From the NCBI GenBank assembly GCA_004102645.1, contig CP034928.1, positions 806,001 to 870,000 on the forward strand: DNA of 64,000 bases, read 5' to 3'. A model generated the notes under the pieces. That model saw only the letters and a program-made list of their open reading frames with translations, was not told the origin of the DNA and searched no databases. Both the position numbers and the translations under genes were made by a program. This document shows positions 1 to 17,655 of this stretch, one piece after another. Numbering within the stretch: position 1 is the first letter of the stretch; every line of letters starts with the position of its first letter. The stretch comes from Candidatus Bipolaricaulis sibiricus (lineage in GTDB: Bacteria; Bipolaricaulota; Bipolaricaulia; Bipolaricaulales; Bipolaricaulaceae).

Positions 1-713
1 TTCGGGACAATGTCCCGGCCCACCTCCGGCGTACGCAGCTCCATTGGCACGGCACCTTCGTCGCGGGGATCATCGCCGCCCGCCTGACCGAGGGTGGCGC
101 GGCTGGGGTGGCCCCGAACGTTCGGATCATGGACGTGCGATTCCTCGACTCCCGTGGCTTGTTCACAACCAAGGACTGGGACCGCCTGGGAGCGGCCATT
201 CGCTACGCGGTGGACAACGGTGCGCGGATCATCAACCTCAGCCTGTACGCCAAGGGGACCCCGCCGGCGGTTGTGGAAGGAGCCCTTGCCTACGCGGCAT
301 CGCGCGGGGCGATCGTGGTGGGGATCGCCGGGAACGAAGCCCGGGCAGAGGTCCTCTATCCGGGTCGGTACAGCACCGTTCTCGCTGTGTCCGCCACGGA
401 TGCTGCCGACGCCCTGGCCTCGTTCAGCTCGTGGGGTCCGGAGGTCGCTGTGGCGGCCCCCGGGCACGAGGTCGTCTCTCTCCTACCAGGAGGGAGGTTG
501 GCCACGAACTCCGGCACCTCCTTCGCTGCCCCCCACGTGAGCGGCACGTTGGCCCTCATCCTGTCCGCGAATCCAGCTCTGAGTGCAGACGAGGCGGTGC
601 GGATCCTCCTTGCCACCAGCTCACCCCTTGCACCGACCCCGGACCCGCGCTTCGGGGCGGGCCTGGTGAACGCGGGGCGCGGGGTGGCCGCAGCGGCAGG
701 GATCGACCGCTAG
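1..713 (+). CDS. Subtilisin-like serine protease (peptidase S8), C-terminal part
   Basis: The gene enters from the left edge of the window; complete codons begin at position 3 and the stop is TAG at 711-713. The visible part holds most of the S8 catalytic domain. The catalytic histidine lies in HGTFVAGI (codon 48-50), the oxyanion region in the GIAGNE segment, and the catalytic serine in GTSFAAPHVSG (codon 519-521). The catalytic aspartate and any signal peptide or propeptide lie upstream of the window. Family members are usually exported endopeptidases; processing of the surface proteins encoded next door is a plausible role but only an inference. It ends just 14 nt before the promoter of the c-di-GMP locus, so it is probably a separate transcription unit. 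Confidence 0.93.
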   Translation, partial: RDNVPAHLRRTQLHWHGTFVAGIIAARLTEGGAAGVAPNVRIMDVRFLDSRGLFTTKDWDRLGAAIRYAVDNGARIINLSLYAKGTPPAVVEGALAYAASRGAIVVGIAGNEARAEVLYPGRYSTVLAVSATDAADALASFSSWGPEVAVAAPGHEVVSLLPGGRLATNSGTSFAAPHVSGTLALILSANPALSADEAVRILLATSSPLAPTPDPRFGAGLVNAGRGVAAAAGIDR

Positions 714-1237: not shown

Positions 1238-1267
1238 GGTAGGGGGAATTCGATCGCAGTGTAGTCC

Positions 1268-1341
1268 GCCGAAAAGGTAAACCCGGAGCGATCCGGGGGC
1301 GCAAAGCCATGGACCTCCTGTAGGCCGCCAGGCTGCCGAAG
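1268..1341 (+). promoter_or_regulatory. c-di-GMP-I (GEMM-I) riboswitch 2
   Basis: The aptamer contains GGTAAACCC, a CCCGGA/TCCGGG stem capped by a GCGA tetraloop, GCGCAAAGCC (1300-1309) and the 3' GGCTGCCG block (1331-1338). It lies between the regulator gene and the giant surface protein. No terminator follows; a good Shine-Dalgarno AGGAGG (1353-1358) sits 5 nt before ATG 1364, so control is probably translational. The variable part of the aptamer holds CCTCCT (1314-1319), fully complementary to that Shine-Dalgarno. No clear promoter is visible just upstream, so it is probably cotranscribed with the regulator. Confidence 0.92.
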
Positions 1342-1363
1342 CGCAACCAGGTAGGAGGAAACC

Positions 1364-4300
1364 ATGGCGAACTTGATTGAGCTGTTCAGTGTGAGTTCGA
1401 ACCGCGTTCCGCGGTGGGCGGTTGGAGCGGTTCTTCTTTTGGCCGTGCTGGCGAGTGGGACGGTATCACCGTTGGTTTCGGCACAGAACTGCAACAACTA
1501 CACCGTGACATTCCTCGGGGCGACGTTTGACGGGACGAACACCACCTTTAGATACCGTGTATGCTCCAATGGCAACCCGGCGATCAGTCACTGGGTGATG
1601 GGCCTTCCTGGCGGATGTTCGACGTGCGCCGACGTGGTATCGGCAGGGCGAGTCGGCAGCAGCTCGGTAACTTGGTCGTGCGGAACGGATCCCACTACCG
1701 GCGTGTTCGGAGTGAAGTTCGATTTTGGGTTCACCTCAGTCGGGCAGTGCGAGGAGTTCTGGATCACGCTTCGCGGATACTGGCCTACCGGCTACACCAC
1801 AGCCGCGGTGAAGGCAGGGTCAGGCAACTGCTTCTATCAGGTTGAGGGGCCGGCATGTCCTCCTCCCGGCCAGCCGGGGCTGGTGCTCGAGAAGAAGACG
1901 AACGGGGTCGACGCCGATAGCCCGCCCGGTCCGGTGGTGGTGGTGGGGTCGACGGTGACGTGGACGTACGAAGTGACGAACACGGGGAACGTGACGCTGA
2001 CGGAGATCGTCGTGACCGACGATCAGGTAGGTTCGATCGGGACGATTTCGACGTTGGCGCCTGGAGCGAGCGCGACCCTGACGAAGGCGGGGGTAGCGGT
2101 AGCGGGCCAGTACGCGAACGTTGGGAAGGCCGAGACGACGTACAACGGTCAGACGGTGAGCGACACGGATCCGAGCCACTACTTTGGGGCGGCGCCGGGG
2201 CTGGTGCTCGAGAAGAAGACGAACGGGGTCGACGCCGATAGCCCGCCCGGTCCGGTGGTGGTGGTGGGGTCGACGGTGACGTGGACGTACGAAGTGACGA
2301 ACACGGGGAACGTGACGCTGACGGAGATCGTCGTGACCGACGATCAGGTAGGTTCGATCGGGACGATTTCGACGTTGGCGCCTGGAGCGAGCGCGACCCT
2401 GACGAAGGCGGGGGTAGCGGTAGCGGGCCAGTACGCGAACGTTGGGAAGGCCGAGACGACGTACAACGGTCAGACGGTGAGCGACACGGATCCGAGCCAC
2501 TACTTTGGGGCGGCGCCGGGGCTGGTGCTCGAGAAGAAGACGAACGGGGTCGACGCCGATAGCCCGACCGGTCCGGTGGTGGTGGTGGGGTCGACGGTGA
2601 CGTGGACGTACGAAGTGACGAACACGGGGAACGTGACGCTGACGGAGATCGTCGTGACCGACGATCAGGTAGGTTCGATCGGGACGATTCCGACGTTGGC
2701 GGTGGGAGCGAGCGCGACCCTGACGAAGACGGGGGTAGCGGTAGCGGGCCAGTACGCGAACGTTGGGAAGGCCGAGACGACGTACAACGGTCAGGCGGTG
2801 AGCGACACGGATCCGAGCCACTACTTCGGAGCAGACCCGTCGATCGATCTCGTGAAGACAGGCACGCTGAACCTGGGACCTAACGGGCAAGCGGATGCGG
2901 GGGACACGATCAGCTACACGTTCGCGGTGACGAACACTGGCAACGTGACGCTGACGAACGTGACCGTGGCGGACCCCAAGGTGACGGTGGTCGGAGGGCC
3001 GATCGCGTCGCTGGCGGCGGGGGCGACGGACACGACGACGTTCACGGGAACGTACGTACTGACGCAAGCGGACATCGACGCAGGGACGTTCACGAACACC
3101 GCGACGGCGACGGGGACGCCGCCGAGCGGACCGAACGTGAGCGATAGCGATTCCGACACGCAGACGCTCGTCGGGGTGCCGTCGATCGACATAGAGAAGC
3201 ACACGAACGGGGTCGACGCCGATAGCCCGACCGGTCCGGTGGTCGTGGTGGGGTCGACGGTGACGTGGACGTACGAGGTGACGAACACGGGGAACGTGAC
3301 GCTGACGGAGATCGTCGTGACCGACGATCAGGTAGGTTCGATCGGGACGATTTCGACGTTGGCGCCTGGAGCGAGCGCGACCCTGACGAAGACGGGGGTA
3401 GCGGTAGCGGGCCAGTACGGGAACGTTGGGAAGGCCGAGACGACGTACAACGGTCAGACGGTGAGCGACACGGATCCGAGCCACTACCTGGGGGTAGACG
3501 GGCACCTCGCGATCACGCCGGGGTCTGCGACGAACGAGGTGGGTGACCCGCACACGTTCTTGATCACGGCGTACGCACAAGGGGCGAGCCCCATTGGGTG
3601 GAGCCTGGTCTACACGGTGACCCCGACTCCGACCAGCGAGAGCCTGAGCACGCCCACGGTGGCGCCCGACGGGATGAGTGCCACCTGGAGCCTCACGATC
3701 AACAGCGCGGTACCCGGAACGTTCGTGGCGATCCCGACCGTGACGATGACGTTCCCCGGCGGGACCGAGGTCGTGCGGACGACGGACGGCCTGGGCGGGA
3801 GCACCGTGCCGGCGCAGAAGACCTACCTCCAGGGGCGGATCAGCCTGAGTCCGGCGGCAGCCACCAATGAGGTTGGAGATCCGCACACGCTGATTGCAGC
3901 GGTCGAGACGACGAGCGACGGACTCACCTGGATCCCGATGTCGGGGGTGCAGGTGGCGTTCTCCATCATCGGCGGAACGGCGAGCTTCGTGGGTGGGGTC
4001 AACACCTCTATCACCAACGGGGCGGGCCAGGCGGCAGCGCAGATCGTCTCTGCAACCCCGGGAACAGTCCTCGTGCAAGCCGCAGCTGACCTGTTCGGTG
4101 ATGGAACGTTCATCGCCACCACGGGCACAGCGGGCAACGGGGGCAATGCGCAGAAAACCTACGTGGACGCCAGGATCAGCGTGACCCCGCTGGGGTCAGT
4201 GAACCCGGTGGGCACGAACCACGCCGTGACCGCGCTTGTGGAGGTCAACACGGGCGCAGGCTGGGTGCCGGCGCCGAATGGAACGCCGGTCATGTTCACG

Positions 4301-6376
4301 CTGCTCAACAACACCGCCGGAGCTACGTTTGTCACAGCATCGACCACGTCGACCACGGGGGGGCAGGCCTCCGTGACCGTGTTCTCATCGAACCCTGGTG
4401 GCGTCGCCATCCGGGCGACGGCGGATGTGACGGTCGCGGGGCTGGTCGTGCGCCGGGCGACCGGGTCCGGTGGTCTGAACGGGTCGGACGCCGTCAAGAA
4501 CTGGGTGCGCAGTAACGAGCCGCCCACGGCGGACGGCCTATCTCTGGTGACGTGCCGGAACACGCCCCTTGCCTTCTCCCTCCGGGGGAGCGACCCTGAC
4601 GTGAACCTGGCCAGTCCGGACCAGCATCCGCTGGCGTTCGCGATCATCGGGGCGCCGACCTTCGGCGCGGTGAGCGGAGACCTGAGCGCTGTCACGTACA
4701 GCGCGCCGCACAGCGCGTCGGTGGAGGTGGTGTACACACCGCAGCTTGACTTCCTCGGCACGGACTTCGTCACCTACACGGTCACCGATCCCACTGGCAC
4801 GTTCGCGGTGGGTGCGATCCGGATCACTGTTGTGGACTGCGGCGGGGAGATTGCCGGTGGAGCCGGTGCCCTTGGGCCAAGGATCGTGATCAACGAGATC
4901 GCGTGGGGCGGGACGGCGGCAGACCCGAATCACGAGTGGATCGAGCTCTACAGCTCGCTGGGCGAACCGATCGATCTCACCGGGTGGACCCTTCGCTGGC
5001 GCCGGAAGCAACCGGCGACGGTGCTCGAGGAGTACGTGAAGGTTGTGGAACTCCGCGGGGCGATCGACGCGTTCGGGTTCTACCTCATGGAGCGCCGCAC
5101 CGACGACGTGGTGGCTGACATCGAGGCGGACCTCATCTACGAGGAGACGGGACCGATCGTGATCACGGAGATCGCGTGGGGGGGAACGGCGGCGAGCCGT
5201 GATGACCAGTGGATCGAGCTCACCAACGTCACGGAGAACGCGGTGGACCTCACGGGATGGACCCTCCGCTGGCGGCTCACCCAGCCGACGACGCCCGAAG
5301 AGCAGGCGTGGAAGGTGGTTCAACTCCGCGGGACCGTGACCGCCTACGGGACGTACTTGCTGGAGCGGGGCAGCGACGACGCGGTACGGGGAGTTCCGGC
5401 TGATCTCATCTACGCCGTGGCTCTCGACCCGCGCGGCGAGGTTCTGGAGCTCCTGGATCCGGCGGGGAACGTTGTGGACACGGCGAACGCGGAGCGCATG
5501 GGGCGCTCTGGCTGGGCGAGCGGGTACGGCCTAGGGGGTGTCCATCCGTACGCGTCGATGGAACGAGTGAACCCCTTTGTTCGCGACGCAGAGCACAACT
5601 GGCGTGGCAATGAGGGTGTTCTCACCCATGGTTTGGACCGGGATGGGGTACCCCTCGTCGCTACGCCGCGGGCGGTGAACGAGCAGTTCCTGCTCTGGGC
5701 GTACCCGGAGGTGAATCCGGCGGAACTCCCCTCGGATCTGGCATACCTTCCGTTCACCTTGGAGCTGTCCGACCGCGGCGAGATCCTGGAGCTGGTGGAT
5801 CGGGCGGGGAACGTTGTGGACACGGCGAACGCCGACAACCCGGATCGCGACGGGTGGGCGGTGGGATACGGTCTGCACGGGGCGCTGCTGCACGCGACGA
5901 TGGAGCGGGTGGACCCATCGCTGCCGGATCTCGACACGTCGTGGGACGCCAACGAGTACATCGTGATCAATGGTCTCGACACCGACGAGGCGTGCCTCGT
6001 GGCCACAGCCCGCACGACAAACGAACCGGTGGTCATGCGATCTGCGGCGGAACAGGCATCGCAGGCGATTGGGCGTGGTCAGATCCTCACGGTGGTTGTC
6101 GTGGCTCCACCGCTGTGTGACGCAGTTCGCTGTCTCCCCCACGCCGTGATCACCCGAGCTGACCCCGCGTTCGCCGACCAGGTGATGGTTGTTGGGGACA
6201 GCGGGGCTCGGGTCGTCTGGGGGGAACCGGTGGAGAGGACGGACAACTTCCGCTTCCTGGTCGACACCACGTCGCTCGAGGTCGGGAGCTACCGGGTGTG
6301 GATATCGTTGGGGAGCAGTCGGCTTCACGTAATCTCGTTCGAGGTGGTCGAGGAAGCCGTCGCGCGGAGCCGATAA
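1364..6376 (+). CDS. Giant modular surface protein (DUF11, Ig-like, cadherin-like and lamin-tail domains)
   Basis: A 1670-residue exported protein. Residues 1-40 form a signal peptide with a hydrophobic core and a VSA-Q cleavage site. A cysteine-containing N-terminal domain (about 41-170) is followed by three near-identical 107-residue DUF11-type repeats (about 172-492), a divergent DUF11 repeat, and a fourth copy (about 606-708). Next come invasin/Big-like Ig domains sharing a TNEVGDPHT motif (about 710-1040), a cadherin-like domain ending in LGTDFVTYTVTD (about 1047-1165), and two lamin-tail domains starting INEIAWGG and ITEIAWGG (about 1172 and 1264). Two GNVVDTAN repeats and a C-terminal beta domain follow. 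There is no LPXTG motif or obvious membrane anchor. The architecture suggests an adhesin or extracellular matrix protein, controlled by c-di-GMP riboswitch 2. The function is inferred from domains only. Confidence 0.9.
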   Translation: MANLIELFSVSSNRVPRWAVGAVLLLAVLASGTVSPLVSAQNCNNYTVTFLGATFDGTNTTFRYRVCSNGNPAISHWVMGLPGGCSTCADVVSAGRVGSSSVTWSCGTDPTTGVFGVKFDFGFTSVGQCEEFWITLRGYWPTGYTTAAVKAGSGNCFYQVEGPACPPPGQPGLVLEKKTNGVDADSPPGPVVVVGSTVTWTYEVTNTGNVTLTEIVVTDDQVGSIGTISTLAPGASATLTKAGVAVAGQYANVGKAETTYNGQTVSDTDPSHYFGAAPGLVLEKKTNGVDADSPPGPVVVVGSTVTWTYEVTNTGNVTLTEIVVTDDQVGSIGTISTLAPGASATLTKAGVAVAGQYANVGKAETTYNGQTVSDTDPSHYFGAAPGLVLEKKTNGVDADSPTGPVVVVGSTVTWTYEVTNTGNVTLTEIVVTDDQVGSIGTIPTLAVGASATLTKTGVAVAGQYANVGKAETTYNGQAVSDTDPSHYFGADPSIDLVKTGTLNLGPNGQADAGDTISYTFAVTNTGNVTLTNVTVADPKVTVVGGPIASLAAGATDTTTFTGTYVLTQADIDAGTFTNTATATGTPPSGPNVSDSDSDTQTLVGVPSIDIEKHTNGVDADSPTGPVVVVGSTVTWTYEVTNTGNVTLTEIVVTDDQVGSIGTISTLAPGASATLTKTGVAVAGQYGNVGKAETTYNGQTVSDTDPSHYLGVDGHLAITPGSATNEVGDPHTFLITAYAQGASPIGWSLVYTVTPTPTSESLSTPTVAPDGMSATWSLTINSAVPGTFVAIPTVTMTFPGGTEVVRTTDGLGGSTVPAQKTYLQGRISLSPAAATNEVGDPHTLIAAVETTSDGLTWIPMSGVQVAFSIIGGTASFVGGVNTSITNGAGQAAAQIVSATPGTVLVQAAADLFGDGTFIATTGTAGNGGNAQKTYVDARISVTPLGSVNPVGTNHAVTALVEVNTGAGWVPAPNGTPVMFTLLNNTAGATFVTASTTSTTGGQASVTVFSSNPGGVAIRATADVTVAGLVVRRATGSGGLNGSDAVKNWVRSNEPPTADGLSLVTCRNTPLAFSLRGSDPDVNLASPDQHPLAFAIIGAPTFGAVSGDLSAVTYSAPHSASVEVVYTPQLDFLGTDFVTYTVTDPTGTFAVGAIRITVVDCGGEIAGGAGALGPRIVINEIAWGGTAADPNHEWIELYSSLGEPIDLTGWTLRWRRKQPATVLEEYVKVVELRGAIDAFGFYLMERRTDDVVADIEADLIYEETGPIVITEIAWGGTAASRDDQWIELTNVTENAVDLTGWTLRWRLTQPTTPEEQAWKVVQLRGTVTAYGTYLLERGSDDAVRGVPADLIYAVALDPRGEVLELLDPAGNVVDTANAERMGRSGWASGYGLGGVHPYASMERVNPFVRDAEHNWRGNEGVLTHGLDRDGVPLVATPRAVNEQFLLWAYPEVNPAELPSDLAYLPFTLELSDRGEILELVDRAGNVVDTANADNPDRDGWAVGYGLHGALLHATMERVDPSLPDLDTSWDANEYIVINGLDTDEACLVATARTTNEPVVMRSAAEQASQAIGRGQILTVVVVAPPLCDAVRCLPHAVITRADPAFADQVMVVGDSGARVVWGEPVERTDNFRFLVDTTSLEVGSYRVWISLGSSRLHVISFEVVEEAVARSR
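1880..2842 (+). repeat. Three tandem 321-bp repeats inside the giant surface protein gene
   Basis: The units start at 1880, 2201 and 2522, exactly 321 bp (107 codons) apart. The first two appear identical; the third differs at a few bases. A fourth, slightly more divergent copy lies at about 3190-3490 after a different DUF11 unit. The near-identity at DNA level, including silent sites, points to recent duplication or gene conversion. The in-frame period means that slippage or recombination would change repeat number without breaking the frame. Confidence 0.95.
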
Positions 6377-6424: not shown

Positions 6425-6631
6425 TGTCTGTGGTCGGGTCCATCGTGCGGCTGCCGCGCTGGCCGCGGCGCACGCGACTTCGCGAAGGAGGATGGCTTCG
6501 GGGCCTGATCGGCTGGAGGAGTCTGTGGCGTCAGTGTGATCAAGGCTACGGACCAGTTTCCGTTCCTGCGCGGACTGAATCATCGGGCCAGCGGAACAAC
6601 TGATCACCCCTTTGGCGGCTCGCGGCGTACT

Positions 6632-7381
6632 GTGAGCACCACCGTGAACGAGCTACGCTTCGTGGCGGCCTGTGTGGCGGGAGCCATGCTGGTCGGTGGG
6701 GGAGGGGGGCTGGCCAGCTCGCCGCCTCGTGCGGGGAGTCAGGTTGTGTGGGTGGTTCCCGGTCGTCCGGTCTCCTTTCGGCTTCTGGGAGGCGACCCCG
6801 ACGGTGATCCGATCACGTTCTACGTGACAAGCGGGCCCTCGAGTGGGACGATCTCTGGACAGGCACCCGACCTCGTGTACGTCCCGTCCGCGGGGTTCGC
6901 GGGACGTGACCAGTTGACGTACCTCGTACAGGATCCTTCCGGGGCGTTCGACATCGGTCTGGTCGAGTTCAGATACGAAAGGCATAGCTCGGTGATTCGT
7001 GTCGGGCTACCGACTCCCGAGACAGGTGCGGATGGGCTCGTGGAGTCCCTGGCTGCAACCCTCGTCCAGCTGGGGGTCCGTCGGTGGTATGTCGCTTCGA
7101 TCCCGACGCTGCGGTGCGTGGCCGGTGAGGTGAGTCCGTTCTTCATCGGCGGCTGGAGCGACACGCCGAGATTCCTGGCCTTCGGTCCTCAGGATGAGCC
7201 ACGGCTGGTCTCGGTTGCCTGGGACGGGTCAGCCCGCACGCTTGATGTGTCTGCGCTTCCTGTGGGTAGCTACCTGATCGTGGTCATACTCGGAACGGAG
7301 GCGGTGTCGTTTCCAGCCCTGGTGTCGCCGCCGCGCGAGAAAGCTCCGCTCTTGTTGGGATCCGCGGCGGTGGGGCCATGA
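6632..7381 (+). CDS. Exported protein with one cadherin-like domain
   Basis: Probably 249 residues from GTG 6632; GTG 6644 is an alternative start, and neither has a convincing Shine-Dalgarno. The N-terminus has a hydrophobic stretch (AACVAGAMLVGG) typical of a signal peptide. Residues about 45-110 form a cadherin-like/Ig domain (GGDPDGDPITF, then GRDQLTYLVQDPSG), the same module as in the giant protein upstream and in the next gene. The C-terminal half is beta-rich and unrecognised; its ending (VGSYLIVVILGTEAVSF) resembles the C-terminus of the giant protein (VGSYRVWISLGSSRLHVISF). I infer a secreted accessory protein that diverged from part of the giant protein. Partner and function are unknown. 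Confidence 0.7.
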   Translation: MSTTVNELRFVAACVAGAMLVGGGGGLASSPPRAGSQVVWVVPGRPVSFRLLGGDPDGDPITFYVTSGPSSGTISGQAPDLVYVPSAGFAGRDQLTYLVQDPSGAFDIGLVEFRYERHSSVIRVGLPTPETGADGLVESLAATLVQLGVRRWYVASIPTLRCVAGEVSPFFIGGWSDTPRFLAFGPQDEPRLVSVAWDGSARTLDVSALPVGSYLIVVILGTEAVSFPALVSPPREKAPLLLGSAAVGP

Positions 7382-7481
7382 TGGGGAAGGCCCGCGGACG
7401 GTCATGTCCCGTGACGGCAGAGAGGGGAGCCTCGGTTCGCAGTGCCTGTGACGCCGCAACAACGACATGAGGTGGTCGACG

Positions 7482-8906
7482 ATGAAGAGCACAGGGTGGG
7501 TTGTGCTGGCTGTTCTCTTGCTTGCGGTGGGGGGCTCGCTGTTCGGCAACGACGGTCCCGTGGTGACGCAGGTGATCACCGTCCGCCAAGGGGCGGCAGC
7601 CCTGTTCTCTGTTGCCACAGGCGACGTGACGGACTATGCGTTCGTGATCCTTGAGGCTCCGGCCAACGGGATCCTCATCGGGGCCCCTCCCCACCTGATC
7701 TACATCCCTCGCGACGGGTTCTTGGGTAACGACTGGATGTCGTTTGCGGCAACCTCCCCCGCCGGAGTACTGCAGATCGGGACGGTGAAGATCCTTGTTG
7801 TGGGTCCGGAGGAAGGGATGGCGATGCCGGCCCTCCTTTCCGATGGGGAACTCGTGTTCTCTGGGCCGACGTTCGCTGTGGATTCGTACCGTCTTGTATT
7901 GAGTCTCCAACAGAGGTTTCGGTACTTCGAACAGTCTCTGCGAGCCACGTGGACCAATGTCGGCTTCACCTCGTTCATTGGAACGACACGGTTCGAGTTC
8001 GAAGGGTCGGCCCCTACCCCCTGGCGGTTGCCCGTTGTCTCGACCCTCGACTTCGACCCCACGCTGCCCGGGCTGAACTCGTGGACAGTGGAGGCCCGGA
8101 CGGACCTCTTTGGCGCAATGTGGATTTACACGTTCTTCTACTCGGGTACCGACCCGGAAGCTAGCTCCTACAACACGTTCCAGGTCCAGGGATCAGTCAA
8201 CCCGTTCGCGTTCGACGTCCTCACGCGATTCGAGAGGCTCACACCCACTTTCGGGAGCACACGGCTCATCGTCAAGGGTCCCTGGATCTGTGCGGGGTGT
8301 CCGACGAACTGGGAACTGGAGTTCCTACAGACCAAGGCCGGGTTCGGGCGCCTGTCGTTGTTGGTCAAGGACGTTGAGCTTCCTTGTCCGGTCTGCGCCG
8401 GGTTGAAGATCCTCCTTGATACGAAGGTCACCTTCACCACGGTCGACAAGACGGTCGAGCCGGCCCTCCGCATTGCGTCGGTCGTAACCGCTTGTGTCAA
8501 GCCGTTGGTGGCCTTGCCCACGGGAACGTCCTGGTTTGGGCTGGAGGGGATCGAGGTCTACGGATTCGAGATCCGGTGCGATCTGGGTGGGTACTCGTTG
8601 CGGTTGGCGACTTCGTTCACCGAGGCCCGGGACTCCGCCGTAACCGGCGACCTGCGGTTCTTCGAGCTGTGGCAGCTCGAGGGGCCTGTGGTACCGTGCT
8701 GCGGCAACCCAGGTCGGTTCCAAGTCACGGCGTACTTCGTGCGCGGGAGTGGCAACCTGTTCGGCTTCGGCATGGGGAACGTCGTGATCTACTTCCCCCT
8801 CTCCCGCGAGGTTCTTGTGAACCTCGGGCTAAAAGTGGGGATGGTGGACCCGCTGGACCCCGCCAAGGCCTGGATCTTGACTGCGGGGTGGCGCGGGATC
8901 TGGTAG
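7482..8906 (+). CDS. Exported beta-rich protein with N-terminal cadherin-like domain
   Basis: 474 residues from ATG 7482, chosen because GAGGTGG (7470-7475 region) lies about 6 nt upstream; ATG 7467 is an alternative. A signal peptide (KSTGWVVLAVLLLAVGGSLF) is followed by a degenerate cadherin-like module ending in GFLGNDWMSF. The remaining about 350 residues are rich in alternating beta strands and include two CxxC pairs (CAGC, CPVC) and a CC pair. Repeating strand patterns such as GYSLRLATSF and LVNLGLKVGM would suit a beta-barrel or beta-helix, but no family is recognised. It probably belongs to the same surface system as its upstream neighbours. Confidence 0.75.
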   Translation: MKSTGWVVLAVLLLAVGGSLFGNDGPVVTQVITVRQGAAALFSVATGDVTDYAFVILEAPANGILIGAPPHLIYIPRDGFLGNDWMSFAATSPAGVLQIGTVKILVVGPEEGMAMPALLSDGELVFSGPTFAVDSYRLVLSLQQRFRYFEQSLRATWTNVGFTSFIGTTRFEFEGSAPTPWRLPVVSTLDFDPTLPGLNSWTVEARTDLFGAMWIYTFFYSGTDPEASSYNTFQVQGSVNPFAFDVLTRFERLTPTFGSTRLIVKGPWICAGCPTNWELEFLQTKAGFGRLSLLVKDVELPCPVCAGLKILLDTKVTFTTVDKTVEPALRIASVVTACVKPLVALPTGTSWFGLEGIEVYGFEIRCDLGGYSLRLATSFTEARDSAVTGDLRFFELWQLEGPVVPCCGNPGRFQVTAYFVRGSGNLFGFGMGNVVIYFPLSREVLVNLGLKVGMVDPLDPAKAWILTAGWRGIW

Positions 8907-11187: not shown

Positions 11188-11215
11188 TTGACGGGAGAAG
11201 CTAGGTGTATATACT
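11188..11215 (+). promoter_or_regulatory. Promoter for the second c-di-GMP riboswitch unit
   Basis: TTGACG (11188-11193) and TATACT (11210-11215) are separated by 16 nt. Each matches the sigma-70 consensus at 5 of 6 positions. The predicted start near 11222 gives a 56-nt leader before riboswitch 3. The interval 11005-11187 shows no gene. Confidence 0.75.
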
Positions 11216-11277
11216 GGAAACACCGATACAGATAGCCGGGGAGGGGAGGTGGCACCGGGCAACTGACCGACGACCGT

Positions 11278-11351
11278 CCGAAAAGGGCAAACCCACGGCA
11301 ACGTGGGGACGCAAAGCCGACAGGTCCCTCTGGGATGGCTGGGTTGCCGAA
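11278..11351 (+). promoter_or_regulatory. c-di-GMP-I (GEMM-I) riboswitch 3
   Basis: Hallmarks are GGGCAAACCC, a CCCACG/CGTGGG stem with a GCAA tetraloop, GACGCAAAGCC (11309-11319) and the 3' GGGTTGCCG block (11341-11349). The start codon of the next gene (11354) lies only about 3 nt after the aptamer, with no separate Shine-Dalgarno between them. Ligand binding could therefore affect ribosome access directly; a GTG at 11372 preceded by AGGAAGG is an alternative start. The direction of control is not clear. Confidence 0.9.
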
Positions 11352-11353
11352 GC

Positions 11354-11827
11354 ATGGTCAGGAAGGCGGTTGTGCTCGCGATGGTGGGGATGGTGGCCGG
11401 GGGCGCCCTCGGTTGTGCGAAGTCAACCACGGCGGGTGCTCAGGCCACGGTCGTGATTCCGGTGCTCGCCCGTCTCTCCGTTCAGGGCGCGAAGGAGTCG
11501 GGTCGGGAGATCCCTGTAGCGGTGGAGTTCCGAGCTCCGACGCCCGACCCTTCGGGCTCCGTTGAGCTCCGGCAGGTGGTCAGCCTTGTCGTGCGCAGCA
11601 ACGCGCCGTGGGCACTCGTCGTGCGCCCCCACGATCTCTCCTCGCAGGGGATCGTGGAGGTGCGCACCGAGCGTGGGGAATACCGGCCGGTTCGGCCGGA
11701 AGGGCTGGTCCTCGCCGCGGGGATGCCCGGCGTGTACGAGATCGTGCTCGACTACCGGGTGCACGTGGGCGCGGCCGGGTGGAATGGTGAGCGTGCGCTC
11801 ACCCTGATCTACGCGATCGAGGGATAG
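11354..11827 (+). CDS. Small exported protein, possible lipoprotein, of the locus's beta-sandwich family
   Basis: 157 residues from ATG 11354. The N-terminus (MVRKAVVLAMVGMV then GGALGCAKS) is a signal peptide; ALGC is a weak lipobox, so membrane attachment through cysteine 21 is possible. The mature part begins with a strand-rich segment (ATVVIPVLARLSV) and ends YEIVLDYRVHV…ALTLIYAIEG. This layout parallels the next gene, which has AQFTVPTLIRLSL near its start and DYSLAFTYTLTAP at its end, so I treat them as distant paralogues. The fold resembles WxL or spore-coat-U type beta-sandwiches only in general pattern. Expression is expected to depend on c-di-GMP through riboswitch 3. Confidence 0.75.
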   Translation: MVRKAVVLAMVGMVAGGALGCAKSTTAGAQATVVIPVLARLSVQGAKESGREIPVAVEFRAPTPDPSGSVELRQVVSLVVRSNAPWALVVRPHDLSSQGIVEVRTERGEYRPVRPEGLVLAAGMPGVYEIVLDYRVHVGAAGWNGERALTLIYAIEG

Positions 11828-12002
11828 ACGTGCCCACGTTGACGGACGGGCGCGACGTGGGAAGGTGGATGCTGGCAGAGAACTGGCGCGTGAGCCCCGT
11901 ATCCTGTGGTCAAGGGGAGGTGGTCGTCGGACTGAGGACAACGCGAGCTCGGGAGACCGTTCTCGCGGCAACGACAGGTTTCGGGATGACACACGAGGTG
12001 AT

Positions 12003-12083
12003 CGAACCGGCAAACCCGGGGCGACCCGGGGACGCAAAGCCACAGATCTCCCTCCTGTGGGGAGATGGCTGGGCTGCCGAAAC
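12003..12083 (+). promoter_or_regulatory. c-di-GMP-I (GEMM-I) riboswitch 4
   Basis: Hallmarks are GGCAAACCC, a CCCGGG/CCCGGG stem capped by GCGA, GACGCAAAGCC (12031-12041), a variable stem ATCTCC/GGAGAT and the 3' GGGCTGCCG block (12071-12079). It is followed directly by an Shine-Dalgarno-sequestering helix (12085-12128), so control should be translational. I see no convincing separate promoter in 11828-12002; the gene is probably cotranscribed with the preceding one. Confidence 0.92.
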
Positions 12084-12084
12084 G

Positions 12085-12128
12085 CCTCCAAGGTCAAACG
12101 GAGTACCCAACACAACTACCCTTGGAGG
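12085..12128 (+). promoter_or_regulatory. Shine-Dalgarno-sequestering hairpin (expression platform of riboswitch 4)
   Basis: CCTCCAAGG (12085-12093) is perfectly complementary to CCTTGGAGG (12120-12128), which contains the GGAGG ribosome-binding site of the gene at 12136. The 26-nt loop has no other obvious structure. The 5' arm lies 2-6 nt after the aptamer, so aptamer folding may change helix formation. Confidence 0.85.
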
Positions 12129-12135
12129 AGAAGTG

Positions 12136-12648
12136 ATGATGAAGGTTCGTACACTTACGGTTGGCATGTTGGCTTTGGGGCTGCTTGTGGGCGTGGCGGG
12201 GACGGCGCAGGTCACGGCGGGTTCGACGGCGCAGTTCACGGTGCCAACGTTGATCCGGCTGTCGCTCTCGACGAGCACGATCAACTTCGGGACGCTGACT
12301 GAGGCGGACTACGACGCCGGGCAGAAGACCGTTTTCTCTGCTCAGGGCATCCAGATCTGGAGCAACAAGAGCTGGACCCTCAGCGTCGCCGCTAACACCG
12401 CAACGTGGACTGGCCCGTGGGCGAAGCCGTCCACCGACCTGCTGTTCCGCGCGACGACGTCGGATGGACGCGTGTCTTCGTACGCGAGCACGTTCACCGG
12501 GCTCACGACGGGGGCAACGCAGGTCGCCGCGGGCACGAGGGGCGGGAATGTCCAGCTCTCCATGGACTTCGAGGTCCTCGTGAGCTGGGAGAACGACCCG
12601 GCCGGCGACTACAGCTTGGCGTTCACGTACACGCTCACCGCCCCGTAA
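12136..12648 (+). CDS. Exported beta-sandwich protein (WxL/spore-coat-U-like), founding member of the local family
   Basis: 170 residues from ATG 12136 (ATG 12139 is also possible), 5-7 nt after GGAGGAG. A signal peptide (VRTLTVGMLALGLLVGVAGTAQ) precedes a single beta-rich domain. Features are TINFGTLTEADYDAG, SNKSWTLSVAAN, a GGNVQLSMDFEVLVSWE strand pair, and the terminal strand DYSLAFTYTLTAP. The gene at 12725 shares the same domain, including the DYDAG/HYDAG motif and the xFTYTLTxP ending. The pattern of a short exported subunit with a conserved C-terminal strand would suit a polymerising or surface-attached subunit, which is an inference. An intrinsic terminator follows the gene. Confidence 0.8.
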   Translation: MMKVRTLTVGMLALGLLVGVAGTAQVTAGSTAQFTVPTLIRLSLSTSTINFGTLTEADYDAGQKTVFSAQGIQIWSNKSWTLSVAANTATWTGPWAKPSTDLLFRATTSDGRVSSYASTFTGLTTGATQVAAGTRGGNVQLSMDFEVLVSWENDPAGDYSLAFTYTLTAP

Positions 12649-12664
12649 TGAGGGGTCGAACATG

Positions 12665-12709
12665 GGCAGCCCGGGTTCACCGAGAATCCGGGCTGCCATT
12701 CCTCTTTGG
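12665..12709 (+). terminator. Intrinsic terminator between the two paralogous exported-protein genes
   Basis: GGCAGCCCGG (12665-12674) pairs perfectly over 10 bp with CCGGGCTGCC (12688-12697), followed by ATTCCTCTTT. It probably ends most transcripts of the riboswitch-4 gene, making it more abundant than the genes downstream. Confidence 0.8.
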
Positions 12710-12724
12710 AGCGGACGAACGACC

Positions 12725-13645
12725 ATGCCCATGAACGGGTTGCCGCTCTTGCTGACGCTGCTTCTCCTAGGGGCCACGGGACTGGCCCAGAACACAGGCT
12801 GGCTGAGCCCGTCGGCCGACGAGGGGCAGTTCGGGGACGGCCCTGAGGCGTATGCTCCCGCCGGCGGGTTCGCGGTTGGACTGAACCAGGTCCACCGGTA
12901 CGGGGGCTTCGCAGTGGTCGTGCCCGGGGGGAGCGAAATCGTCGGGATCGAGGTCCTTGTCCGGGCGCGGCGGTCGCCAACGCGGTGGGGGGCTTTGGGT
13001 GTCGAGCTCTCCGGTGACGGAGGGATGAGCTGGACGACCACCGGCTACACGACGGGGAGCCTTCACCCCACGCAGTGGCGCGACCACACGCTGGGGAGGA
13101 GCACGGACCTCTGGGGCCAGGCCTGGACACGGGGGGAGCTTGGGGACGGGGTGTTCTGGGTTCGGGTTCATGCCCAGGGCTACGCTGAGCTTGACTGGGT
13201 GGCGGTGCGCGTGCACTACCGGGAAGGGGTCACTCAGGCGCTGGCGGTAACGCCGCAGCTCATCGATCTGGGAGCGATCACCCTCGCTCACTACGATGCG
13301 GGCTACCGAGAGGTATCACCGGCACAGCGGATCACGGTATCCAGCGGTGCTCCGTGGTCCCTGCACGTCGCCGCCGACGCGGCGACCTGGGCGTACACCG
13401 GGTCCGAGCTGCCTCCGCACAAGCCGTGCGCGCACCTTGAGTGGCGGGTCAGCGCGTTCGGCGCCGGCGTCGCGGGCCCTCAGACGAGCTACGTGGGGCT
13501 GTCCACGGGGCAGCAGAAGGTGGCCGGGGGAACCGCCGGCACCGATCTGTGGCTGGAGGTCTCCCTGCGGCTTCGGGTGGACTACGACACCACGGTTCCG
13601 GGCACCTACGAGCTTCGGTTCACGTACACGCTGACCACTCCGTAG
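12725..13645 (+). CDS. Larger paralogue of the exported beta-sandwich protein
   Basis: 306 residues from ATG 12725; ATG 12731 is an alternative, and a weak GGAG lies 13 nt upstream. Signal peptide: NGLPLLLTLLLLGATGLAQ. Residues about 20-165 form an N-terminal beta domain (VVPGGSEIVGIEVLVRARRS, then VFWVRVHAQGYAELDWVAVRVHY), resembling galactose-binding-like jelly rolls in pattern. Residues about 170-306 are a copy of the 12136 domain (LIDLGAITLAHYDAG, SSGAPWSLHVAADAATW, ending ELRFTYTLTTP). A two-domain form next to a one-domain form recalls adhesin or tip subunit versus major subunit pairs, but this is only an analogy. Confidence 0.78.
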   Translation: MPMNGLPLLLTLLLLGATGLAQNTGWLSPSADEGQFGDGPEAYAPAGGFAVGLNQVHRYGGFAVVVPGGSEIVGIEVLVRARRSPTRWGALGVELSGDGGMSWTTTGYTTGSLHPTQWRDHTLGRSTDLWGQAWTRGELGDGVFWVRVHAQGYAELDWVAVRVHYREGVTQALAVTPQLIDLGAITLAHYDAGYREVSPAQRITVSSGAPWSLHVAADAATWAYTGSELPPHKPCAHLEWRVSAFGAGVAGPQTSYVGLSTGQQKVAGGTAGTDLWLEVSLRLRVDYDTTVPGTYELRFTYTLTTP

Positions 13646-13656
13646 GTCGCAGTGCG

Positions 13657-13662
13657 TATAAT
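13657..13662 (+). promoter_or_regulatory. -10 box of a probable leaderless promoter
   Basis: A perfect TATAAT lies exactly 7 nt before ATG 13670, so transcription would start at or beside the start codon. The -35 region is weak (TGACCA at 13632-13637, 19-nt spacing). There is no Shine-Dalgarno in front of ATG 13670. Confidence 0.6.
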
Positions 13663-13669
13663 CGCTTCG

Positions 13670-14674
13670 ATGCGGAGTCCCCTCTGGATCGCGATCGCTC
13701 TGCTGGCCACGACGGGCCTGGGTCTCGAGGTTGACCTCCTTGAGGTCGATTTGGACGTTGCTCCGGGCCAGACCTATGCGTTCTCGTTCATCGCCCGCAA
13801 CGAAACGGCAGTTGCCGAGACGTTCTCTGTCTACGTTGGGGATTGGGATCGCGATGAGATGGGCGGGAATCGGTTCTACCCCCCGGGGACGCTGCCACGC
13901 TCGCTTTCGGCGTGGCTCTCGGTATCTCCCGCGTCGTTTGTGCTGGGTCCAGGGGAGAGTCGGGAGGTGAGGGGAACGCTCCGCGTACCCGTCGACGCGC
14001 CGGCCGGCACGTACTGGGGTATCGTGTTCGTCCACGGTGAGCCGCGGCCCGTGGATCATGGAGGAACCACGGTGATGGTGGCTCGTCGGATCGGGGTCAA
14101 GGTCTACGCCACCGTGGGCCAGGCGCCGCTCCAAGGGGAGATCCGCGGGCTGCGCTTCGGGGGGCTCAACCCGCTGTGGCTGGTGGTGGAGTTCGCCAAC
14201 CCGGGGTTGGTGAACCTGCGCGCGGTGCGGTCCGAGGTCCGGATCTTCGACGCGCAGGGCGAGCAGATGGCGCAGTTCGAGCTGGACCCGTTCCCGTGCC
14301 TGCCCGGCGGGATACGGCAGGTGGTCGTGGAGACGGAGGTGCGCCCTGCTCCCGGGATGTACCTTGTGGTAGCGCGGGTGGACCCGGGCGGGGAGGAGAT
14401 CATCGCCGGTCAGGCCTACCTCAGGGTGCGGCCTCTGTCCCTCGCTCCACTCGCTGGGGGCTCCCTTCCCCGCGACTTGGACGGGGATGGCCTGTACGAG
14501 GACATCAACGGGGACGGGGTGTTCGACGAGCGTGATGTGGAGCTGTTCCGGGCGGTATGGGCTAGCCCGGAGGTGCAGGCCAACGTTCGGGCGTTCGATT
14601 TCGACAACAGCGGTCGTGTGGACGAGCGCGACGTCGATGCGCTGGCTGCGCTCCTCGCCGAACAGACGGAGTAG
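13670..14674 (+). CDS. Periplasmic-chaperone/DUF916-like protein with C-terminal dockerin repeats
   Basis: 334 residues from ATG 13670; GTG 13652 is possible but would overlap the -10 box. A signal peptide (RSPLWIAIALLATTGLGLE) is followed by an Ig-like domain with PGQTYAFSFIARNETAVAETF, WLSVSPASFVLGPGESREVR and VPVDAPAGTYWGIVFV. This resembles PapD-type pilus chaperones and the DUF916 domain of WxL-interacting proteins. A second beta domain spans about 145-255. Residues about 270-330 hold two dockerin-type calcium loops (DLDGDGLYEDINGDGVFDERD and DFDNSGRVDERDVD) with following helices. Dockerins bind cohesins in cellulosome-like complexes; no cohesin is visible here. It may present or hold the exported subunits encoded just upstream. 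Confidence 0.75.
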   Translation: MRSPLWIAIALLATTGLGLEVDLLEVDLDVAPGQTYAFSFIARNETAVAETFSVYVGDWDRDEMGGNRFYPPGTLPRSLSAWLSVSPASFVLGPGESREVRGTLRVPVDAPAGTYWGIVFVHGEPRPVDHGGTTVMVARRIGVKVYATVGQAPLQGEIRGLRFGGLNPLWLVVEFANPGLVNLRAVRSEVRIFDAQGEQMAQFELDPFPCLPGGIRQVVVETEVRPAPGMYLVVARVDPGGEEIIAGQAYLRVRPLSLAPLAGGSLPRDLDGDGLYEDINGDGVFDERDVELFRAVWASPEVQANVRAFDFDNSGRVDERDVDALAALLAEQTE

Positions 14675-14750
14675 CCCGCTCACGCCCGCTGCCGGCAGGA
14701 CTTCCCCTCACCCGCAGACCTCCTTCCTCGGCGCAGGCGGCGGGAATCCC

Positions 14751-14756
14751 TAGACT
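14751..14756 (+). promoter_or_regulatory. -10 box of a probable leaderless promoter
   Basis: TAGACT ends exactly 7 nt before ATG 14764, the same geometry as at 13657, 42728 and 45436. No good -35 box or Shine-Dalgarno is visible. Confidence 0.4.
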
Positions 14757-14763
14757 CCCAGCG

Positions 14764-17655
14764 ATGGGGCTTCGGATGGCGTGTCCGCACTGGGGAGTGG
14801 GGATTGGTCTGGCCTGGATGCTCTTCCTGACGGCTGGCCCCGGCGCGCTCGGCCAGCTGGCCGTCTCGGTGATCTCCCCTCCGCGCACGGTCTCCCCTGG
14901 CGACGTGGCGATTCATGTCTTCTTCCTGTCCAATCTGGACGCGTCACCCGTGGAGGTCACTCTGCGGGCAGGTGTCCCGCCGGGCTGGGGGCAGCTCGGG
15001 GTGCCCGCCACGGTCGTCCTCGCTGGCGGAGGAGAGGAACCTGTGTTCCTGACCGTGGTCGTGCCCCGGGGAGCCACGGCCGGGGTGCAGACCGTTCGGC
15101 TGGAGGCGACCTGGAGCGGAGGCACAGCATCGGCGGAGGCCGCGGTTCGGGTGCTGGCTGTGGCGGGGGTGGAGATCGTCTCCCCCCGGTCGGGTGAGGG
15201 CCAACCCGGCGACTCGATCGGCTACGAGCTGGTCATCGTGAACCGAGGCAACGTGCTGGACCGGTTCACCGTGGAGGCCTCTTCCGCACAGGGGTGGGTG
15301 GTGCGGGCCACTCCCCGGGAGTCCAGTCTCCGTCCGGGCGAAGCGGCCACGGTGAGGATCGTCCTCTCCATCCCAGCCCAGGCCGAGCCCGGGCGCGACT
15401 TCCTGACGGCGGTGGTTCGGACTCAAGAGGGCGCGGAGGGGCGCGCGGGGTGGGTCACAACCGTTCTTCCCCCCGGGCCGGGGGCGGTCGCCGGCACGGT
15501 TCTCTCCGCGCTCGGCATGCGGCTGGGACTGTCGCTGGGCTCCGATGCGATCTCCGATCGCCGGCTGTCCCGGCTGACGCTGACCGGGGGCGGCGGTGTG
15601 CTGGATGGCGAGGTGACGCTCGTCGCCTCCGCGAGCGGTCCCTGGGAACCTACGCCGTACAGGCTGATGCGGCTCGCTCTCTCCTTCGACGGGCCGTGGG
15701 CGTGGGTTACCCTGGGGGAGGTGGGGCTCGACCTGTCGTTGCTTCTTCTCCCACTCGGGGCAGAGGGGATGGGTGCGGGGATCAGAACCGACTACGGCTG
15801 GGCTGCCCTTCTCACCGGGTGGAGGGCGGAGGAGGCCCGGTTCGGCCTGAGTGGAGCCTGGGTCGGCCCGTGGGGAGAACTGGGGATTGCGCTGCGGGAG
15901 ACCCGGGGAGCAGACGGGGTTCGTGCCGGCGCCCTGCGGGTGAAGGCCGAGGTCGGCGAGTTTCTGACTGCCGAGGCCGAGGGCGGCGTAGCCTTCGCGG
16001 GGGGGCACCTCGATGCGGGCCTCCGTGTCGGGTTGGTGGTGGGTGCGGGTTCGGACTTCTCCGTGGGGGTGACGGGCTACGCGGTGGGCCCAAACATGCC
16101 CGGCCCGCGCGCCGACCGGGCGGGGATGGACCTGTCGGGAAAGCTCGTCATTGAGCCGCTCGGGCTCCGCTTCACCATGCGCTGGGAAAGGGACAACGTC
16201 CTCGTGATCCCCGTCGTGCCTACTGTGATGAGAACGGAGCTCACTGCTGCCTGGGATTGGCTGCCCTCCTGGGAAGTCGTTGGGCTTTTCGGGACAGCCT
16301 CCCTCCGCCGCAGCCAGGGATTCGGGCCGGGGTTGACCCCGGACGCTCAGGTCGGCTCGCTGGGGCTGTCACTCAACCTGGGAGAAGCCCCCCTCACCGT
16401 GCGGCTGGGGGGGCGGTGGCGCTGGGAAAGGGACGCGCCCGCCACGCCCAGCCGCTGGATCGCGGAGTACGAGGAGCGGATCAGCTTGACGCTCGCCCAG
16501 ACGCGGGCGACGCTCGTTCTCGCTCAGGCTGCAACCCGCGATGAGCTCGGTACGCTTGTTTTCACCGAGAACGACGTGCGCGCGGACTTGGTCACCCCAG
16601 CTGGCATCGCCGTTGACTTCCGGAGCCGGCCCAGCGGTAGCAGTCTCGGCATAGGGGTTCCCGTGGCCGTCGCCCCTTCGCTTTCGGCCACCGTGCGCGT
16701 GGAGGCAAGGTGGGGTGCCCTTGGCGAGGTGACCTCGCTGTTCGGGTTGATCTCGTTCGACTATGCGTTCACGTGGACGCCTCCCTTTCTTCCGTCGAAG
16801 GGGTGGTTGGAGGGGATGGTGTTCGTGGACGACAACGGGAATGGTCGGTTCGACGCGGGCGAACAAGGGATTCCCAACGCCGTTCTGGTGGCAGACGGCA
16901 AGCGGGTGGCCAGCGATGGGGACGGGCGGTTCCGGTTTCCGCCCCTGCCGCCGGGCACCTATGTGGTTACCCTGGAGCGGGTCCCTGCGGGCTTCCGATC
17001 CCTCGCGGATCTTCCCCTTCAGGTCGAGGTAGACCTCGCCGGACGGACGATCGTGCGTATCCCGTGCGAGCGGATCGGTACGATCTCGGGCGTGGTGTAC
17101 CGCGACGACGACCAGAGCGGGACCCGCTCGGCAGGTGAGCCTGGGGTGGGACGGGTGCGGGTCGTCCTGGAGCGGGGTGGCGTGGGTGTGGCTGAGGCCC
17201 TCACGACGCCGCTGGGTTCGTTCTCGTTCACTGATCTCTCTGCCGGGGAGTACCGGGTTCGGCTCGATGCAGGGGGACTTCCCGAGCGGTACGAACCCAC
17301 AACCCCCGCAGTTGTTGACGTGAAGCTGGCCCCGGGAGCTGGAGAGGAGGTCTTGTTCGGCATTCGGGAGAGACCGCGGCCTGTCGTGGTGGTGCTGCAG
17401 CCTCCGGTGGCGGATTTTACGTGGGCCCCACCGTCGCCTCGGGCGGGCGAAGTCACCGAGTTCGACGCTGGCCCGTCGCTGGGGCGGATCGTACGCTACG
17501 AATGGGACTTCACGGGGGACCGGACGCTCGATGCTGAGGGGATCCGTGCGGAGTGGACATTCCCCGACGCCGGGGTGTATCTGGTGACTCTGGTTGTGAC
17601 CGACGACGCGGGACTTGTCGATGAAGTCAGCCTACTGGTGCGCGTGATCCCGTGA
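14764..17655 (+). CDS. Predicted outer-membrane beta-barrel protein with N-terminal Ig-like and C-terminal SdrD-B and PKD domains
   Basis: 963 residues. A signal peptide ends near GALGQ (about 30). Residues 31-135 and 140-240 are two NEW3/COG1470-type Ig domains (e.g. GYELVIVNRGNVLDRF). Residues about 245-680 consist of alternating amphipathic strands without any cofactor motif, as in an outer-membrane barrel of roughly twenty or more strands. Two SdrD-B/CNA-B domains follow (about 690-770, with FVDDNGNGRFDAGE; about 775-860, with YRDDDQSGTRSAGE), then a PKD domain (about 885-963, with YEWDFTGD and WTFPDAGVYLVTLVV). The order Ig-barrel-Ig recalls pilus ushers, but the family match is not established. 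Placed directly after a chaperone-like gene, it is the best candidate for the secretion pore or anchor of this locus. Confidence 0.75.
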   Translation: MGLRMACPHWGVGIGLAWMLFLTAGPGALGQLAVSVISPPRTVSPGDVAIHVFFLSNLDASPVEVTLRAGVPPGWGQLGVPATVVLAGGGEEPVFLTVVVPRGATAGVQTVRLEATWSGGTASAEAAVRVLAVAGVEIVSPRSGEGQPGDSIGYELVIVNRGNVLDRFTVEASSAQGWVVRATPRESSLRPGEAATVRIVLSIPAQAEPGRDFLTAVVRTQEGAEGRAGWVTTVLPPGPGAVAGTVLSALGMRLGLSLGSDAISDRRLSRLTLTGGGGVLDGEVTLVASASGPWEPTPYRLMRLALSFDGPWAWVTLGEVGLDLSLLLLPLGAEGMGAGIRTDYGWAALLTGWRAEEARFGLSGAWVGPWGELGIALRETRGADGVRAGALRVKAEVGEFLTAEAEGGVAFAGGHLDAGLRVGLVVGAGSDFSVGVTGYAVGPNMPGPRADRAGMDLSGKLVIEPLGLRFTMRWERDNVLVIPVVPTVMRTELTAAWDWLPSWEVVGLFGTASLRRSQGFGPGLTPDAQVGSLGLSLNLGEAPLTVRLGGRWRWERDAPATPSRWIAEYEERISLTLAQTRATLVLAQAATRDELGTLVFTENDVRADLVTPAGIAVDFRSRPSGSSLGIGVPVAVAPSLSATVRVEARWGALGEVTSLFGLISFDYAFTWTPPFLPSKGWLEGMVFVDDNGNGRFDAGEQGIPNAVLVADGKRVASDGDGRFRFPPLPPGTYVVTLERVPAGFRSLADLPLQVEVDLAGRTIVRIPCERIGTISGVVYRDDDQSGTRSAGEPGVGRVRVVLERGGVGVAEALTTPLGSFSFTDLSAGEYRVRLDAGGLPERYEPTTPAVVDVKLAPGAGEEVLFGIRERPRPVVVVLQPPVADFTWAPPSPRAGEVTEFDAGPSLGRIVRYEWDFTGDRTLDAEGIRAEWTFPDAGVYLVTLVVTDDAGLVDEVSLLVRVIP

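Follow-up and report, generated by a model that had tools for sequence, protein, structure and literature searches.

The stretch analyzed here (the window) comprises 64,000 bases of Candidatus Bipolaricaulis sibiricus, namely bases 806001-870000 of a genome consisting of a single contig of 1,701,655 bases. At positions 11354-17655 it contains a five-gene operon that looks like an apparently undescribed relative of pilus-building machines. An initial annotation had proposed a surface-assembly system here, composed of three exported subunits, a chaperone-like protein and a beta-barrel, and all five open reading frames (ORFs) were found in place in the ORF listing of the window, all on the forward strand. 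We refer to the first three genes as sub1, sub2 and sub3, and to the products of the other two as the chaperone-like protein and the barrel protein. The chaperone-like ORF starts with a GTG codon at 13652, and an ATG at 13670 is an alternative start. Coordinates are given in Table 1. Promoter-like sites such as the one upstream of sub1 were found twice in 12 kb by a pattern scan, compared to a mean of 0.6 in shuffled sequences.

Table 1. Genes, leader RNA elements and other features of the five-gene operon (positions refer to the window; aa, amino acids; SD, Shine-Dalgarno sequence)
Feature	Position	Strand	Basis or remark
Sigma-70-type promoter-like site, TTGACG-16-TATACT	11188-11215	+	10/12 match; consensus match only
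5' flank of sub1 aptamer, CTGACCG (11263-11269), second candidate GACC (11272-11275)	11263-11275	+	complementary to sub1 start region TGGTCAG (11355-11361)
c-di-GMP-I-GGC aptamer before sub1	11277-11352	+	Rfam RF03167, 63.6 bits (gathering 59)
sub1, putatively exported minor subunit, 157 aa	11354-11827	+	ORF, family profile, gene order
5' strand of lengthened P1, GAGGTG	11995-12000	+	pairs with CGCCTC (12083-12088)
c-di-GMP-I-GGC aptamer before sub2	12000-12082	+	Rfam RF03167, 61.6 bits (over gathering)
Anti-SD hairpin	12083-12130	+	CGCCTCCAAGG (12083-12093) with CCTTGGAGGAG (12120-12130); SD GGAGG (12124-12128)
sub2, 170 aa, probable major subunit; has a W-x-L motif and an N-terminal strand with alternating pattern	12136-12648	+	
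Terminator-like hairpin after sub2	12665-12697	+	pattern scan; strong stem in 15/15 genomes
sub3, 306 aa, two-domain subunit laid out like a tip adhesin, with a beta domain at the N-terminus and the subunit domain at the C-terminus	12725-13645	+	
Chaperone-like protein, two WxLIP-related Ig domains, C-terminal dockerin-like domain	13652-14674	+	
Large barrel protein, 963 aa, two NEW3/Ig domains, 26 barrel strands, two SdrD_B-type domains, PKD	14764-17655	+	

The three subunits constitute one beta-sandwich family, in which sub3 carries an extra N-terminal domain. Sub2 and the C-terminus of sub3 share 37% identity, sub1 and sub2 share 23%, and profiles seeded with sub1, sub2 or sub3 each converged on sets of 81 genes. 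Identity and convergent profiles thus confirm the related layout originally noticed for these proteins, which are probably exported as judged from signal peptides assessed by eye. The E-values of the iterated subunit hidden Markov model (HMM) derive from profiles trained on the same fetched loci, the Deinococcus matches described below being independent of this training; reversed ORFs gave no matches to the sub2, chaperone or barrel profiles. When 43 members of the subunit family were scanned against Pfam no family was prominent, with just stray single matches (DUF4402 once, E 0.0033), and sub3 had no Pfam match.

The predicted structure of sub2 (predicted local distance difference test score, pLDDT, 88.4; predicted template modelling score, pTM, 0.77) was compared with known folds. 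Foldseek listed TLP-1a (E 5.9e-6) and TLP-1b (E 1.0e-5), followed by PapA (E 2.6e-3), and VIA ranked TLP-1a (Z 10.8), TLP-1b (Z 10.6), FimG (8.1) and PapA (8.0) before further structures at 7-8, mostly pilins; Z-scores below 8 are weak taken alone, yet the list is dominated by chaperone-usher pilins. Archaeal pili, a thread (7pnb) and bundling pili (7ueg), also appeared in the fold lists. Past the signal peptide, the N-terminal strand of sub2 is hydrophobic at residues 32, 34 and 36 in 90, 100 and 95% of the members, and at residues 31, 33 and 35 in 10, 24 and 10%. Such an alternating hydrophobic/polar N-terminal strand is the donor-strand pattern of chaperone-usher pilins. The modelled fold and the alternation both agree with a donor-strand pilus subunit, in which strand donation would take place. 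In addition, the subunits have a W-x-L motif at residues 80-82 (W in 36/43, L in 37/43) and a distal Y-x-L (Y at residue 165 in 37/43), the WxL domain having W at the corresponding C-terminal site. Comparison by hhalign of the subunit profile with a thin WxL profile of five rows gave a probability of 1.1%.

Sub2 is the probable major subunit, and sub3 likely corresponds to a tip adhesin. The initial annotation had taken a terminator behind sub2 as a sign that this subunit is the most abundant one. A strong long stem was present close behind the sub2 stop codon in all 15 genomes folded, which agrees with sub2 as the major subunit and implies that transcripts reaching sub3, the chaperone and the barrel should be fewer. 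The hairpin pattern itself fared less well: four matches in 12 kb, against 5.2 in shuffles, make the count by itself not significant.

The chaperone-like protein is, judged from its sequence profile, a distant relative of WxLIP over both of its domains. The profile matched EfmWxLIP1 in PDB entries 9i25 (E 2.4e-6) and 9i1y (E 2.6e-6) at profile positions 30-258, which cover both Ig domains, and entry 9i25 contains a WxL chain beside WxLIP. WxLIP_PGBD was matched by 11 of the 39 chaperone members at E ≤0.1, PF06030 was without match in this genome, and PapD_N (PF00345) was matched by a single member of the 39, at E 0.016 at best. The comparison with WxL and chaperone-usher systems drawn initially is a fitting one. 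A Dockerin_1 domain is present at the C-terminus in 28/39 members. In PMC10599100, WxL clusters are described as combining a single WxLIP with WxL proteins of both small and large size, and an AlphaFold prediction is reported in which a strand of WxLIP enters a gap in WxL and completes its sandwich. By analogy, WxLIP, small WxL and large WxL may parallel the chaperone, sub2 and sub3. As a separate observation, the product of a gene on the Klebsiella pneumoniae plasmid record CP069367.1 (101758-102474) shares 74.6% identity with the Enterococcus WxLIP query; contamination or mislabelling of this record is likely.

For the barrel protein, the AlphaFold2 model (pLDDT 88.0, pTM 0.55) has 26 strands (residues 250-671), preceded by two Ig domains at the N-terminus and followed by three further domains at the C-terminus, two of SdrD_B type and a PKD domain. 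The barrel flanked by Ig-type domains that had been foreseen was thus recovered and, by its Pfam-type domains and the model, it shares with chaperone-usher systems a large barrel with soluble domains on both sides. Loops counted by hand had a mean length of 5.5 residues after odd strands and 2.9 after even strands; this difference fits both ends of the protein being in the periplasm, where the N- and C-terminal domains would accordingly be placed in the model. In Foldseek searches FimD was the top match among membrane barrels (E 2.9e-14), and large Ig-repeat proteins scored too. Together, the two predicted structures offer the anticipated resemblances, of sub2 to a pilus subunit and of the barrel to a large outer-membrane barrel.

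Among 100 genomes from the phylum, 87 contained a chaperone homologue, some matches being partial or confined to the dockerin. Forty stretches around chaperone matches, from 39 genomes, were fetched, and 23 of them belong to the family of the window. The order sub1-sub2-sub3-chaperone is kept in 14 of these 23 loci, with the barrel next in 13; in the 14th the contig ends before the barrel, and in L041 an extra dockerin gene lies between chaperone and barrel. The other nine loci have different or incomplete arrangements, for example with subunits behind the barrel. Over all 40 loci a subunit gene was found in 34, a barrel in 28, and all three gene types in 22. Thus, many Bipolaricaulaceae keep these genes in the same order, the set varies across the phylum, and the co-occurrence in related genomes on which the initial annotation had staked its proposal does exist. 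A scan of named genomes for the two Ig domains of the chaperone, with a profile from an alignment of 18 of the 39 chaperone rows, yielded 27 loci, of which 25 were titled Bipolaricaulota or Acetothermia, one "uncultured bacterium" and one "Neomarinimicrobiota". Locus L102, on a contig titled Neomarinimicrobiota, has two subunit genes, a chaperone and a barrel, and is perhaps a mislabelled bin.

Relatives were also found outside the phylum. A tblastn search of plasmids with the chaperone returned 20 records, four of them Deinococcus matches over the Ig domains; the other rows among the best 15 of the 20 were Arthrobacter over the first domain, or dockerin only. Three Deinococcus plasmid operons (CP058536.1, NZ_CP140100.1 and NZ_CP026517.1) encode a protein of ∼291 aa, a chaperone, a protein of ∼189 aa and one of 1013-1090 aa, mostly annotated as hypothetical. 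As in the window, chaperone, subunit and barrel are homologous: hhalign aligned the Deinococcus chaperone with the chaperone family (99.9%, E 1.5e-31), the large protein with the barrel family (100%, E 1.1e-40, 872 columns) and the 189-aa protein with the subunit family (96.8%, E 2.7e-10), and HMMs trained on Bipolaricaulota loci alone concurred. The 291-aa protein reached 2.3% against the subunit family with hhalign, the subunit HMM meeting its last strand (E 1.6e-5). The Deinococcus barrel was found by profile, a tblastn search of plasmids with the barrel region giving no match; no TLP-1 relatives were found on plasmids. Unlike the operon described here, the three Deinococcus stretches matched no Rfam family, and hence no riboswitch, and the one Deinococcus chaperone scanned had no dockerin.

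Control by cyclic di-GMP (c-di-GMP), also proposed initially, is indicated at the Rfam level by the two RF03167 aptamers in the operon, both over the gathering score. The genome contains five RF03167 matches, all within 12.5 kb, and three GGDEF domains. Of 100 genomes from the phylum, 94 had an RF03167 match at E ≤0.001 and 86 one that exceeded the cut-off, compared to none of 14 control genomes. Of 58 strong aptamers in the loci fetched, 49 lie at most 700 nt upstream of a subunit gene, a count that left out ten weak matches (25-35 bits) and, since the loci were picked by their chaperone, does not represent whole genomes. In L061, L069, L070, L075, L056, L058 and L062, strong aptamers have a weak second aptamer-like match (25-35 bits) directly beside them, and these are possibly degenerate tandem riboswitches.

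The leaders of 15 genomes were aligned, and pairings were compared with shuffles that ignore the relatedness of the 15 sequences. For sub2, the lengthened P1 helix was paired in 95.6% of cells (slid versions 42-56%) with six cells showing two-sided changes, a number matched by 3/500 shuffles, and the anti-SD helix was paired in 89.9% (slid versions 43-59%). The P1 3' strand shares bases with the anti-SD hairpin, and therefore the two helices are mutually exclusive. In folding calculations with no ligand terms, the forced anti-SD fold lay less than 1 kcal/mol above the minimum free energy in 11/15 leaders, the remaining four having a shifted register. All counts include L042, which is off by one base in the P1 alignment, and L045, L047, L048 and L049, with shifted anti-SD register. 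For sub1, each of the 15 genomes laid out has its start codon (a GTG in one of them) ∼1 nt after the aptamer end, and a helix of at least 5 bp between flank and start region can form in 15/15. Register 11-14/95-98 of this helix was paired in 91.1% of cells, with six two-sided-change cells, reached by 0/500 shuffles. The start codon had an unpaired probability of 0.40-0.77 in 14 leaders and 0.01 in one, so that plain folding does not settle the direction. We predict that ligand favours P1 at sub2 and frees the Shine-Dalgarno sequence (ON), and that the closed aptamer at sub1 hides the start (OFF), the latter being the weaker of the two directions. Eighteen subunit leaders outside these 15 showed mixed designs, start-adjacent and anti-SD, in a simple, descriptive helix scan without shuffle control.

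The neighbouring genes are also associated with riboswitches. A subtilase gene (Peptidase_S8, E 2.1e-46; window 1-713 plus upstream, L001:1574-2641, genome 805643-806710) has a start codon that overlaps the end of a c-di-GMP-I aptamer (805570-805644), a sub1-like design, and several same-genus genomes have a listed aptamer directly before the subtilase orthologue. It recalls the c-di-GMP-linked adhesin/protease pair of C. difficile, as described in PMC6366702. The next riboswitch (776-850) precedes a gene, in the region 776-1237, for a small ribbon-helix-helix protein (RHH_1) with tail repeats RLGEIL...ALV.Q. These repeats, which Pfam did not so name, presumably resemble the c-di-GMP-binding MshEN domain. 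Region 1267-6376 comprises a riboswitch (1267-1341) and the gene for a surface protein of 1670 aa that contains DUF7507 in five stretches along with two lamin-tail domains, and two probably exported proteins with Big_9 near the N-terminus are encoded at 6536-8906, between the riboswitch genes and the operon.

The families, gene order, conservation, aptamers, alternative pairings and model folds computed above are best read, with a probability of roughly 0.6, as those of a separate chaperone-usher-like lineage that builds a surface fibre across the outer membrane. In the periplasm the exported subunits would encounter the two-Ig-domain chaperone, and a strand lent by it would complete their open beta-sandwich. 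The assembly and exit site in the outer membrane would be the barrel protein, whose N- and C-terminal domains would face the periplasm; at this barrel the N-terminal strand of the next subunit would displace the chaperone. Sub2 would form the bulk of the fibre, its abundance maintained by the hairpin that follows its gene, and sub3, which has an additional N-terminal domain besides the subunit domain, could adhere at the tip. C-di-GMP would turn sub2 translation on through lengthening of P1 and, by the same logic read from the sequence, sub1 off. By sequence the operon qualifies as neither chaperone-usher nor WxL, and the system is therefore classed as a variant of donor-strand fibre assembly.

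Several observations weigh against this proposal. At E up to 10, the genome gave no match to the Pfam models for the usher (PF00577, which matched E. coli as a control), the WxL domain (PF13731) or WxLIP. Chaperone-usher systems have nothing equivalent to the dockerin domain, for which no cohesin (PF00963) partner was found in the genome at E up to 1. The barrel model lacks a plug insert, its longest loop having 10 residues, and VIA placed the porin-like MtrB first (Z 22.1), above PapC/FimD (15-18) with OprD-type porins close by (∼16). The fold thus does not single out an usher, and the model argues for a large barrel of usher-like layout, not specifically an usher. Moreover, 12/40 loci are without a barrel in the fetched stretch (some through contig ends) and six without a recognisable subunit, and the relatedness ignored by the pairing shuffles tempers the leader results.

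A WxL-like surface complex in place of a fibre is conceivable, and in our view rather unlikely: the WxLIP-like protein would hold a coat or adhesin patch made of the subunits, with the barrel as a porin or envelope anchor beside it. The gene content mirrors a WxL cluster as described in PMC10599100, the chaperone sequence is closest to WxLIP, the subunits combine a proximal W-x-L with a distal Y, and the barrel, besides ranking MtrB first, matches a Deinococcus envelope protein in 7zgx (VIA Z 15.9). However, the subunit profile misses WxL, PF13731 is absent, the subunit fold ranks pilins, the alternating N-terminal strand and the stem behind the major subunit are traits of pilus operons, and the barrel is kept with the chaperone as far as Deinococcus. 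That the operon is a true, very divergent branch of the chaperone-usher family is improbable: the order of roles is the same and the folds match pilins and FimD/PapC, but PapD_N and PF00577 fail as described, the plug is missing, and the barrel has 26 strands. Ushers have 24. Least probable is a TasA- or thread-like fibre that self-assembles by donor strands, with barrel and chaperone serving another purpose, as the top fold match to TLP-1 and the listing of 7pnb and 7ueg might suggest, since chaperone and barrel remain adjacent to the subunit genes across phyla.

A more far-reaching version of the fibre-assembly proposal can be put forward tentatively, at somewhat less than even confidence: a separate outer-membrane fibre pathway common to Bipolaricaulota and Deinococcus, with a WxLIP-kin chaperone and pilin-fold subunits, would bridge WxL and chaperone-usher systems, two c-di-GMP riboswitches of opposite sign would exchange subunits (sub2 on, sub1 off), and a third, at the surface subtilase, would shut off the protease. 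If this lineage is right, Gram-positive WxL clusters would be tied to Gram-negative chaperone-usher pili, a link testable in culturable Deinococcus, and two same-class riboswitches that apparently act in opposite directions within a single operon would, if true, constitute a compact subunit-exchange switch. Bipolaricaulota are largely uncultured; one member is prosthecate, and the 2018 genome paper reported for it, in its accessible part, no fimbriae, pili or adhesins (PMC6092417). A c-di-GMP-riboswitched surface-assembly system kept across the phylum would be a candidate adhesion organelle for this group. Among open-licence PMC papers we found none on TLP-1 or on riboswitches in Bipolaricaulota, and, among the papers listed, nothing on point linking WxL with ushers or barrels.

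As the initial annotation had it, the gene order mirrors that of chaperone-usher and WxL systems while the families differ, the distant WxLIP kinship notwithstanding. Canonical membership was rejected in both cases, for chaperone-usher on PF00577 and PapD_N (1/39 at E 0.016), and for WxL on PF13731, Pfam WxLIP and the hhalign value of 1.1%. The TLP-1a/TLP-1b structures (PDB 9ikj and 9ikk; cryo-electron microscopy, 16 copies of one chain) are the top fold match of sub2 (Z 10.8, 144 residues, root mean square deviation 4.0); unlike sub2, these chains have 236-237 aa, and their sequence match to it is weak (E 0.09). With the Gram-positive WxL/WxLIP clusters (DUF916/DUF3324; PDB 9i25 and 9i1y; PMC10599100) the operon shares one two-Ig-domain partner with small and large beta-sandwich proteins, a collinear profile match over both Ig domains, and the W-x-L motif. 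It differs in the distal Y-x-L, the large barrel, the riboswitch control, and the Dockerin_1 domain in place of the C-terminal (transmembrane) helix described for WxLIP. Finally, chaperone-usher pili (PapD/PapC, FimC/FimD) belong to families unrelated at the Pfam level, and differ from the 26-stranded, plugless barrel with its other N- and C-terminal domains, whereas they resemble the operon in subunit fold, in having a two-Ig-domain chaperone and a two-domain subunit, in a large barrel flanked on either side by soluble domains, and in the stem that follows the gene for the major subunit.

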